Shown in pieces: positions 37,081 to 39,742 of a stretch of DNA of 64,000 nucleotides. The DNA comes from Chryseolinea serpens (lineage in GTDB: Bacteria > Bacteroidota > Bacteroidia > Cytophagales > Cyclobacteriaceae): assembly GCF_900129725.1 (NCBI RefSeq), contig NZ_FQWQ01000006.1, forward strand, positions 248,001 through 312,000. Direction: 5' to 3'. The first letter of the stretch is position 1. Every line of letters starts with the position of its first letter. Position numbers and translations under genes: made by a program. Under the pieces are notes generated by a model, which searched no databases, was not told the origin of the DNA, and was given only the letters and a program-made list of their open reading frames with translations.

Positions 37081-37134
37081 GCTAAAGCTTTAACAAAAGC
37101 GGGCTTGCCCGCTGAAGCTTTAGCGAAAGTGGGT
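37081..37134. repeat. Combined direct and inverted repeat after the TonB receptor gene
   Basis: GCTAAAGCTTTAACAAAAGC at 37081 and GCTGAAGCTTTAGCGAAAGT at 37111 are imperfect copies 30 bases apart, each followed by GGG. At the same time the outer GCTAAAGCTT (37081-37090) pairs with AAGCTTTAGC (37115-37124) and the inner AGCGGGC pairs with GCCCGCT. The element can fold as a long hairpin next to the receptor's stop codon and may act as terminator or as an extragenic repeat. Confidence 0.7.
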
Positions 37135-39590
37135 CAAAATTTAAACGCCGCCATCAACAAAAAATTCGTCCCTGCCTGCGGGAAATAGTAATTCTCCCGG
37201 TACTCAGCGCCACCACCCAAATAGCCCCACGTCCACCCATTCGACTGATATTTCTCATTCAAGAAATTATTCAGCAACCCGCTCAATGCGATCTCGCGCA
37301 TAAACGATGGGTGTATGGTATACGTCAACCTCAGGTCGTTAACAAAGTAGTCGTTAATGCGCCTGTTTTTATTGGATGTATTGTCCAAATATTGCGCACC
37401 CACATATTTTGCCAGCCAGGTAAGCTCCAGGTTTTTGAAAGGGCGGTAGGAAAAACCCGAGCCCACAATCACGTTGGGGGAGAAGGCGATGTCGGTGCTT
37501 TTATAGCTCCGTTTCACTTCCAGGTATTGATCGAAGTTCTGGCCATAGTCGTACAGCACTTCGTTGAAGTCGCGGATCCTATTGCGGCTCAGGGTCACGT
37601 TGGCCGTCCACGAAAATTGCTGCGAGATGCGCAACATTCCCTCTACTTCCACACCGGTGCGATAGCTTCGGTCCACATTGGTGCGCAAGGAAGCTCCAAC
37701 ATCGTTCACCTTGCCCGTGAGCACGAGTTGGTTGTGATAATCCATGAGATAGTAGTTGACGTTGAGCGCATAATTCCTTCCTGTGCGGCGATAGCCAACC
37801 TCCACGTTGTTCAGCGTCTCATGTTTGGGCACGATGCCGTTGGGGGCATCTACAAAATCATCGCGCACAGGTTCGCGGTTGGCCACGGCATAGGATCCGT
37901 AGAGTTGCTGGTTGTCGGCCAGGGCGTAGGTCAAGCCGGCTTTCGGATTGAAGAACGTGAAATTGGCATCGACGTTTATGGGATTTTGTTTGTTCTCTAT
38001 ACCCGATGTGGTGTAGAGAATTTTGCGAACCTGCAGATCCACATAACCGGAAAGCCTGTTGCTGAATTGATAGCTGGTCTTCAGGTAAACGTTGCCGTCG
38101 CGTTTGTCGGCATTGTTAAAATAATAGCGGTATTCCGTTGGAACGGTGGCCACCTGTGCCCAAATGATCTCGCCATAATGATCGCCTGTGTAGCGATTCC
38201 AAGCCCCACCCAAAATGACATTCCAATTGTCTTTGTCATAATTCAGAGAATAGGTCACTCCATAAAAATCATTGTTCAGCCACCGCCTTCTCACCAGGTC
38301 CGAAGAAGCGATCGTGGAATCGCCGATGACGACGGGCGACAATCCATAGGAAGCAAAATTGTCGTTGTAACGATATTCTTCATAATAGCCTTTGCCCTTG
38401 GTGTAGTGCAGCGACACATTGGCGGTGAGTGCTTCGTTTACGCGTTGTGAAAAATGAAGCTGGTAGTGATTTTGTGTGTAATCGTCTACTTGATTTTTGT
38501 ACGTATACGGATTGAACGTGCGGCTATTGGAAGTAAGCAGGTTCTGTGTTTGCGCTTCATTCCAACCTTCGTTGGATGCCGTGGTCATCATGGCCTCCAC
38601 GTCGTTGTTGAGCCGCGATTGTGGTACGCCATACCAGGCCTGATAGGTTCTTTCCTTTCCACCAAAGACCACCGCTTTCAACATGGTGCCTTTGTTATAA
38701 TAGCCTCCCGAAAAATAATACGACTGCAGATTGCTGGAGGCTCTGTCGATAAAGCCGTCCGACTGGATCTTGGATACGCGCGCATCCACAACCCAATGAT
38801 CGTTAAGCAAGCCCGAACCCAATTGAATGGTGTTGCGCAGTGTTCCAAACGATCCGGCAGAAGTGATGAGGCTTGCATACGGCGCATCGTTGCGCGTGTT
38901 CGTCTGCAAATTTATACTGGCACCGAACGCACCCGCACCATTGGTTGACGAGCCCACACCGCGCTGCACTTGAATGCTCTGCGAAGACGAAGCGATATCG
39001 GGTATGTCTACCCAATACGATCCTTGCGACTCGCTGTCGTTGTAGGGAATGCCGTTCACCGTGACGTTGATCCGGGTGGCATCGCTCCCGCGGATGCGAA
39101 TGCCGGTGTAGCCAACGCCCGCGCCCGCGTCGGAAGTGGTCACCACCGACGGCGTCCAGTTCAAAAGCATGGGCAGGTCCTGTCCAAAGTTCTGTTTCTG
39201 GATGGCTTGTTTGCTCACGTTGGTGAACGTGGTGGGAGTTTTGTCGTTGGCGCGCGTGGCAACCACCACTACTTCGTCGGTCATCTGGGCCGATTCCTCC
39301 AGGCTAATGCTAACGGGACCGCTAAGCGGCACGGTAACTTTTTCTTGTTTCACGATGTAGCCGAGAAATCTCACGGCCAGGGTAAATTCACCGGCCGGAA
39401 CTTTGGAGAGTGTGAACCTTCCGAACTCATCGGCTACGGCAAACCGTTTGAGTTCCTGCATTTCCACGGTTGCGCCGGGCAACGCGTGATGAGTTTTTGC
39501 ATCTTCGACGGTCCCGTCGACAGCAAACTGTTGCGCATAAGCGCCTGCCGACCACAGCATGGCTGTGGTGACACATAATACTTTGAACAT
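37134..39590 (-). CDS. TonB-dependent receptor, predicted thiamine (or precursor) transporter
   Basis: An outer-membrane active transporter of 818 residues. A signal peptide (MFKVLCVTTAMLWSAGAYAQ) is followed by a carboxypeptidase-regulatory-like domain (about 23-100), the plug (about 120-225, with GYTGIRIRGSDATRINVTVN) and a 22-strand barrel ending with FLLMAAFKF, the usual aromatic last residue. Substrate is suggested by the TPP riboswitch in its leader: expression should fall when thiamine pyrophosphate is high. No thiamine synthesis gene or PnuT is adjacent, so it is an orphan. The barrel could also carry the thiazole or pyrimidine precursors. Confidence 0.9.
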   Translation of the reverse strand: MFKVLCVTTAMLWSAGAYAQQFAVDGTVEDAKTHHALPGATVEMQELKRFAVADEFGRFTLSKVPAGEFTLAVRFLGYIVKQEKVTVPLSGPVSISLEESAQMTDEVVVVATRANDKTPTTFTNVSKQAIQKQNFGQDLPMLLNWTPSVVTTSDAGAGVGYTGIRIRGSDATRINVTVNGIPYNDSESQGSYWVDIPDIASSSQSIQVQRGVGSSTNGAGAFGASINLQTNTRNDAPYASLITSAGSFGTLRNTIQLGSGLLNDHWVVDARVSKIQSDGFIDRASSNLQSYYFSGGYYNKGTMLKAVVFGGKERTYQAWYGVPQSRLNNDVEAMMTTASNEGWNEAQTQNLLTSNSRTFNPYTYKNQVDDYTQNHYQLHFSQRVNEALTANVSLHYTKGKGYYEEYRYNDNFASYGLSPVVIGDSTIASSDLVRRRWLNNDFYGVTYSLNYDKDNWNVILGGAWNRYTGDHYGEIIWAQVATVPTEYRYYFNNADKRDGNVYLKTSYQFSNRLSGYVDLQVRKILYTTSGIENKQNPINVDANFTFFNPKAGLTYALADNQQLYGSYAVANREPVRDDFVDAPNGIVPKHETLNNVEVGYRRTGRNYALNVNYYLMDYHNQLVLTGKVNDVGASLRTNVDRSYRTGVEVEGMLRISQQFSWTANVTLSRNRIRDFNEVLYDYGQNFDQYLEVKRSYKSTDIAFSPNVIVGSGFSYRPFKNLELTWLAKYVGAQYLDNTSNKNRRINDYFVNDLRLTYTIHPSFMREIALSGLLNNFLNEKYQSNGWTWGYLGGGAEYRENYYFPQAGTNFLLMAAFKF

Positions 39591-39652
39591 GTTGTTAAAA
39601 ATGGTTTAAACCTGCAGCGCACAGGGGAATGCACCTGCTTACGTTTAACCTT

Positions 39653-39739
39653 GCCTTCCCTTCGGCCGCATTACCGGCATCAGGTTCTTTGGGTATGATC
39701 TCAGCCCGTTGTTTTATGGCACCCCTTGTCCTTTCGGAC
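39653..39739 (-). promoter_or_regulatory. TPP riboswitch (THI element)
   Basis: On the minus strand the conserved parts of the TPP aptamer appear in order: GGGGTGCC (39718-39725), GGCTGAGAT (CTGAGA at 39699-39704), ACCC (39691-39694), GAACCTGAT (39679-39687), TAATGC (39668-39673) and GAAGGGAAGG. A hairpin GTCC-GAAA-GGAC precedes it at the predicted RNA start. About 60 bases remain to the receptor ATG and include a GC-rich stretch (GCAGGTGCA with TGTGCGCTGC) and the palindrome GGTTTAAACC near the start, which may be the switching part. Control of translation initiation is more likely than termination because no T tract is seen. Confidence 0.95.
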
Positions 39740-39742
39740 GCA

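Follow-up and report, generated by a model that had tools for sequence, protein, structure and literature searches.

Outer membrane receptors placed under riboswitches for thiamine pyrophosphate (TPP) are known from several groups of bacteria. The first prediction of TPP-controlled TonB receptors was reportedly made by Rodionov and others in 2002. Receptors termed omr have been described under THI elements in metagenomes (PMC2211319), omr1 genes have been described beside thiamine diphosphate riboswitches in SAR86 and Flavobacteriales (PMC10881298), and a TPP-controlled TonB receptor also occurs in a Variovorax operon (PMC10409787). Mutant phenotypes are known for OMthi of Bacteroides thetaiotaomicron: deletion of the receptor in a biosynthesis mutant leads to a higher thiamine requirement (half-maximal effective concentration 15.8 nM), and its gene, BT2390, lies apart from pnuT-tnr3 in what has been termed a split operon (PMC5613172). 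The same logic, a vitamin riboswitch before a TonB-dependent transporter, is found for a receptor under a cobalamin riboswitch in Flavobacterium psychrophilum (PMC9723704). The window analysed here, a 64 kb stretch of the Chryseolinea serpens genome, contains a TonB-dependent receptor gene that is likewise preceded by a riboswitch, in this case a TPP aptamer. The receptor belongs to the known omr1/OMthi kind and is, as a finding, fairly ordinary. What may be new is a stand-alone kinase encoded elsewhere in the same genome, which is discussed below as a candidate thiamine kinase.

The receptor and its riboswitch are made up of the following features.

39736-39640, minus strand: TPP riboswitch aptamer (RF00059), found with Infernal against Rfam 15
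37134-39590, minus strand: gene of an omr1/OMthi-like TonB-dependent receptor of 818 residues, from the open reading frame, Pfam domains and orthologues with a TPP riboswitch upstream
39264-39518, minus strand: N-terminal CarboxypepD_reg_2 domain of the receptor, residues 25-109 (Pfam PF13715, 62.3 bits)
38919-39245, minus strand: plug domain, residues 116-224 (Pfam PF07715, 49.4 bits)
37305-38570, minus strand: beta-barrel, TonB_dep_Rec, residues 341-762 (Pfam PF00593, 79.3 bits)

All three domains score above their Pfam cut-offs, and the protein has both the plug and the barrel of a TonB-dependent receptor. The sequence-only reading had recognised a TPP aptamer 60-140 bases before the receptor start codon. 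This is borne out by Infernal, which matches the full RF00059 model (positions 1-105) with 55.9 bits (E 2.9e-8), 1.6 bits above the gathering score of 54.3 bits. The distance was also about right, as the match spans 146 to 50 nucleotides upstream of the ATG at 39590. It is the sole TPP match in the window, and the element is confirmed as an RF00059 TPP riboswitch, with TPP binding predicted. The closing stem P1, as drawn by the model, has standard pairs at only 2 of 5 positions and is not a stable stem, a possible reason for the modest score; the remainder of the model fits the leader well, and the family score does not need P1. An alternative P1 that uses upstream bases is hinted at by eye.

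The pairing of riboswitch and receptor is conserved. The nearest named relative, Chryseolinea lacunae, has a receptor that is 84% identical, in a locus with the same gene order where the receptor is alone too, and it has its own RF00059 match of 56.9 bits. Counted on the alignment, the two genomes share 152 consecutive identical bases from the leader through the first codons. A Tannerellaceae metagenome-assembled genome encodes a receptor fragment with 50% identity over 317 residues and has a TPP riboswitch before it (57.4 bits); only through this fragment is the receptor linked to BT2390. In a survey of 194 genomes of the order, a receptor match with E 1e-60 or better was found in 120. This count is too low, because a diverged receptor in one genome (G181, L162:5927-8284), which lies beside a pnuC-family gene and a kinase gene, missed the cut. 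In the top 30 receptor loci (L011-L040), a TPP riboswitch lies upstream on the same strand in every case; 24 of these score above gathering (the window's own and 23 of the 29 others), and the other 6 score 39.8-52.4 bits. The conserved upstream TPP element that characterizes omr1/OMthi receptors is present, and its conservation in these 30 loci, in C. lacunae and in the Tannerellaceae genome shows that the pair is not due to chance. The pair is real and old. A TPP match occurs somewhere in 118 of the 120 receptor genomes, and of the 150 TPP places listed, 44, from 42 genomes, precede a listed receptor by 63-316 nucleotides. Receptor places from 99 of the 120 genomes entered this comparison, and those from 102 entered the comparisons of distance. 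Two genomes of one genus (G069 and G096, genus g55) have tandem TPP aptamers before the receptor (L027:3995-4326 and L031:3988-4222).

The genes for thiamine metabolism in the host genome (8.36 Mb, 99.3% complete) are those expected of a bacterium that salvages the vitamin. No match to ThiC was found in this genome, in a search whose control was positive in 13 of 14 genomes. Two partial matches to ThiG (25.9 and 25.7 bits), in frames of 330 and 324 residues, cover 74 and 50 of the 247 model positions. Both pass the family cut-off, which is low at 23 bits, and both were discounted since their coverage is short and a true ThiG in a relative (G105) scores 354.5 bits. Thiamine pyrophosphokinase (TPK), searched with the model TIGR01378, gave no match in this genome; in the control genomes the model gave a match in 7 of 14, above its cut-off in 6. 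ThiL is present (326 bits). Two TPP riboswitches were detected in the genome, and the other one, which is stronger at 75.9 bits, precedes thiM-thiE-thiD-tenA. ThiD, ThiE and ThiM with ThiL or ThiN form the published signature of double auxotrophs, bacteria that take up thiamine or the pair of hydroxymethylpyrimidine (HMP) and the thiazole alcohol (HET) (PMC6593275), and the genome, with ThiD, ThiE, ThiM and ThiL, has this signature. The host is therefore a predicted salvage auxotroph that would depend on import, because ThiC, for the pyrimidine branch, and a convincing ThiG, for that of the thiazole, are lacking, whereas B. thetaiotaomicron makes thiamine. One survey reports Bacteroidota clusters without any described system of thiamine synthesis or transport (PMC10881298). 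Across the order ThiC is rarer in genomes with the receptor (19 of 120) than in those without a receptor match (37 of 74), a comparison uncorrected for kinship; the Fisher p-values for this and for the co-occurrence of kinase and TPK ignore relatedness.

It is probable that sufficient TPP lowers expression of the receptor through the riboswitch and that, under scarcity of TPP, thiamine or a vitamer close to it is imported by the receptor. TPP riboswitches in bacteria repress, and the direction of control is assumed from that. With enough TPP in the cell the aptamer would reduce expression of the TonB-dependent receptor, and under scarcity the receptor would bring thiamine or a close vitamer across the outer membrane. 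Passage across the inner membrane may be carried out by a pnuC-family carrier, as in many relatives. The stand-alone kinase, which resembles the kinase half of NadR, would then convert thiamine to thiamine phosphate and ThiL would convert thiamine phosphate to TPP. Pieces of the vitamer could be rebuilt by ThiM, ThiD, ThiE and TenA, whose genes are under the other detected TPP riboswitch. The sequence-only reading had proposed that the receptor carries thiamine or one of its precursors, and this is the best reading of the conserved pairing, the auxotroph gene set and the OMthi genetics reported in PMC5613172, with the ligand as the part that is predicted.

How the switch may work is suggested by a hairpin between the aptamer and the receptor start codon, which is complementary to the aptamer at one point.

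39603-39650, minus strand: expression-platform hairpin predicted with ViennaRNA, with outer stem GGTTAAAC / GTTTAAACC, an inner stem and a CCCC loop at 39627-39624
39722-39725, minus strand: GGGG of the 5' strand of aptamer helix P2, from the sequence and the model alignment

The CCCC loop is complementary to the GGGG of P2, and without TPP the two could pair. A hairpin with a CCCC loop occurs in 14 of 31 receptor leaders (the window, L009, L012-L015, L017-L020, L022, L027, L031 and L035), compared to a mean of 0.36 and a maximum of 2 in 100 dinucleotide-shuffled sets, and in 2 of 24 TPP leaders without a listed receptor adjoining. It is missing from the other 17 receptor leaders, from all 5 further receptor leaders and from the Tannerellaceae leader. 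The inner stem covaries, with compensatory changes in 6 of 6 predicted pairs among 14 rows that were preselected for the loop, and the consensus energy of the same 14 rows is small (-1.83 kcal/mol). The hairpin sets this leader apart from OMthi, and its occurrence in several families of the order makes it a possible lineage-specific switching element.

Several observations weigh against thiamine import under TPP control. In B. thetaiotaomicron, mRNA of the transport genes is reported not to change significantly with thiamine, and single transport deletions are reported to be without phenotype (PMC5613172). Under stricter filters, no TPP match turned up anywhere in two of the receptor genomes, G061 and G066, and the receptor of G061 is interrupted by a contig end. 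The receptor barrel has no near relative among the solved structures compared, and a structure prediction made from two sequences reached a mean predicted local distance difference test (pLDDT) score of 27. The platform hairpin folds whether or not the aptamer is enforced, and the start region has a mean pairing of 0.55 and 0.58 in the two folded states, so the direction of control cannot be read from folding. P1 is weak, and a classical terminator/antiterminator switch between P1 and a terminator could not be drawn. Neither of the pnuC-family genes of this genome groups closely with a kinase-linked copy, and the lack of TPK in the genome was read from a single model.

The stand-alone kinase is a PF13521 protein. 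The copy in this genome (C10:3136208-3136738; L176:6209-6742) has 177 residues. It matches the NadR model with 101.7 bits against a cut-off of 341.15 and covers the kinase half only, so that it is not a bifunctional NadR with both nicotinamide mononucleotide (NMN) adenylyltransferase and kinase halves. It is 40-67% identical to 10 of the 11 other stand-alone copies aligned and 33% identical to the eleventh, and these kinases mostly read DPxREHP where NadR reads DGLR. In a tree of 53 kinase rows, 44 rows lie beyond one branch with support 96/94, among them this copy, the one stand-alone kinase of that larger clade in the genome. Outside that branch are five full-length NadR proteins, the short kinases of L120, L149 and L160, which group with NadR, and one outlier (L152). 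The gene order in G132 is typical of the relatives: a pnuC-family gene, a kinase of 169 residues whose gene overlaps it by 8 bases, a TPP riboswitch and the receptor. Kinase and receptor are within 10 kb of each other in 36 of the 64 listed genomes that have both, whereas about 0.3 would be expected. Kinase places were taken from 86 genomes, 84 with at least 165 bits plus G028 and G044, and the 36 include these two with their weaker matches (122 and 126 bits).

The distribution of the kinase with respect to TPK is also suggestive. TPK is above cut-off in 18 of the 194 genomes and the kinase scores at least 165 bits in 84, none of which has TPK (uncorrected for kinship). At 150 bits or more and an open frame below 290 residues there are 89 kinase genomes, again none with TPK. 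When every listed match in a frame below 290 residues is counted there are 116, of which 2 also have TPK (G045, 132 bits, and G114, 122 bits); these two scores are in the range of NadR-type kinases, and weak short matches of this sort blur the exclusion. Of the 120 receptor genomes, 98 carry a short kinase when matches are counted most loosely, 17 carry TPK, 2 carry both and 7 carry neither. The strict count leaves 69 with the kinase and, next to the 17 with TPK, 34 without either. Relatedness explains part of the exclusion, since family f11 accounts for 16 of the 18 TPK genomes. In the two others, G008 of family f9 and G157 of family f4, no kinase match reaches E 1e-15; of the remaining members, 9 of 10 in f9 and 10 of 12 in f4 do have one, the matches in f4 being weak (115-167 bits).

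The known module nearest to this arrangement is PnuT-Tnr3 of Bacteroides (PMC5613172), in which a PnuC-family carrier is encoded beside a kinase gene and goes with a TPP-controlled receptor, as in the relatives. The gene after pnuT there, tnr3, has been called a thiamine pyrophosphorylase. Within the order studied here, it is often the stand-alone PF13521 kinase, not TPK, that is encoded next to the carrier. Compared to the OMthi system, the genome studied here has neither a match to TPK (tnr3) nor a pnuC-family gene beside the receptor. From the exclusion of TPK, together with the place of tnr3 after pnuT in Bacteroides, the stand-alone kinase is predicted to phosphorylate thiamine ahead of ThiL. 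The chances are about even that the order's missing thiamine kinase is this protein, that it replaces TPK by making the thiamine phosphate that ThiL turns into TPP, and that it does so in a module with the receptor and a pnuC-family carrier (in Chryseolinea-like genomes perhaps a major facilitator superfamily, MFS, protein instead), the CCCC hairpin being a possible lineage-specific switch alongside. No published account of the kinase was found in open-licence PubMed Central papers, which is weak evidence of absence.

The pnuC-family gene and the kinase could instead be a nicotinamide riboside salvage pair that is beside the thiamine receptor only incidentally. The PnuC-NadR module for nicotinamide riboside has a carrier and a kinase domain homologous to those found in the order, NCBIfam calls the transporter of G132 nicotinamide riboside transporter PnuC, the best model for the kinase is nadR_NMN_Atrans and its solved relatives are NadR. 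The kinase-linked PnuC-family genes do not form a single clade. The NadR-linked ones do, however, including the partners of the L149 and L160 kinases, and the stand-alone kinases lack the adenylyltransferase half and form a clade apart from NadR. The genome also holds a separate PnuC-NadR pair. These points, with the proximity of kinase and receptor and the lack of TPK wherever there is a clear copy of the kinase, make the salvage pair doubtful, and a role in thiamine phosphorylation is preferred for the kinase.

Which protein would carry thiamine across the inner membrane of this bacterium is less clear. Its two pnuC-family genes are both on contigs other than that of the receptor. One is followed by the full-length NadR and groups with NadR-linked copies. 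The second, C10:2440436, has no kinase adjoining and falls in a clade of four rows; the other three are paralogues from G119, G132 and G156, each of which carries kinase-linked pnuC-family copies as well. This clade is nested in a larger group of otherwise mostly kinase-linked copies. In G119, G132 and G156 the pnuC-family gene of the clade overlaps a neighbour (L163:3289-4867, L164:3947-5537 and L171:3242-4910), which in L164 and L171 has weak flavin-monooxygenase/acyl-CoA-dehydrogenase matches; the copy in this genome is without this partner. C10:2440436 was neither accepted nor rejected as the thiamine carrier. An MFS gene directly follows the kinase gene, with no pnuC-family gene adjoining, in this genome (G000), its genus mate G208, G144 and G173.

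L176:6747-7985, L178:5469-6707, L193:5399-6628 and L194:6787-8016: MFS gene after the kinase gene, from an EntS-like match

The other copies are 68-80% identical to that of this genome, and the EntS-like match (168 bits) is below the model cut-off of 324. This MFS gene does not follow the kinase gene in G019, G064 and G078. EntS is an exporter, so the MFS protein is only a lead, either to a possible substitute carrier or to an exporter. A gene of 489 residues near pnuC (L116, L117, L125 and L128) was considered as an amine oxidase and rejected, as it belongs to a different cluster; the L117 copy is an IMP dehydrogenase.

As to the cargo of the receptor, it is less likely still that the main substrate is a precursor or breakdown product of thiamine, such as HMP, its amino derivative or the thiazole alcohol, to be joined by ThiM, ThiD, ThiE and TenA. 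The only other detected TPP-controlled operon is the salvage set, the salvage signature fits auxotrophs that take either thiamine or HMP and HET (PMC6593275), and without a TPK match the direct use of thiamine needs another kinase. Against precursors as the main cargo, orthologues of the receptor are found in 19 genomes with ThiC and beside pnuC-family genes, and small vitamers may pass porins too. The published counterpart in B. thetaiotaomicron, moreover, matters for the use of thiamine (PMC5613172).

It is very unlikely that the cargo is unrelated to thiamine, such as haem or a siderophore, and that TPP control was merely acquired. The best NCBIfam match of the receptor is to the haemoglobin/transferrin/lactoferrin receptor subfamily, but its 70.7 bits are far below the model cut-off of 323.75, and TPP control is kept in all 30 of the top loci, over many genera. 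A chance match near the threshold, which the small margin of the window's aptamer over gathering might suggest, can be rejected with near certainty, given the identical stretch shared with C. lacunae and RF00059 matches at the same place in 31 of 31 relatives' loci, 25 of them above gathering.

The surroundings of the receptor gene add one further feature.

37098-37113, minus strand: terminator-like hairpin directly after the receptor stop codon, from a pattern scan

The scanned region has 4 terminator-like sites compared to 3.7 in shuffled sequences, and only the placement of this one is suggestive; it is consistent with a single-gene transcript of the receptor. Downstream of the receptor are genes for a zinc peptidase (PF04298) and an acyl-CoA dehydrogenase, and upstream is a divergent biotinyl-domain gene. 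None of these neighbours has a known link to thiamine, and no pnuC-family or thi gene was found adjoining the receptor in this genome. The sequence-only reading had called the receptor an orphan, unlike known TPP-linked receptors beside pnuT or thi genes. The description holds for this genome and for C. lacunae, whose neighbours are the same, but the contrast was overstated, as OMthi itself is apart from pnuT-tnr3. Nor is standing alone special: a genomic link to pnuT is frequent and not required for omr1/OMthi receptors, and isolation is common in the order, where the receptor has a pnuC-family gene within 10 kb in 34 of the 102 receptor genomes listed, with PnuC-family places taken from 143 of 155 genomes. 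In two genera (L112:6199-7757, L113, L114, L115 and L120) the receptor is closely trailed by two genes on the same strand, which in L112 encode a UbiA-type prenyltransferase and a PurN-like formyltransferase. Both may share the receptor's transcript and thereby its TPP control.

Many bacteria rely on thiamine from their surroundings. The gene inventory indicates that this bacterium must import the vitamin, and it seems to be without TPK. The mutual exclusion of TPK and the stand-alone kinase across the order, together with the clustering of the kinase with the receptor and the pnuC-family gene, provides a concrete candidate for the missing enzyme. If the kinase is indeed a thiamine kinase, an entire clade would be misannotated as PnuC and NadR.

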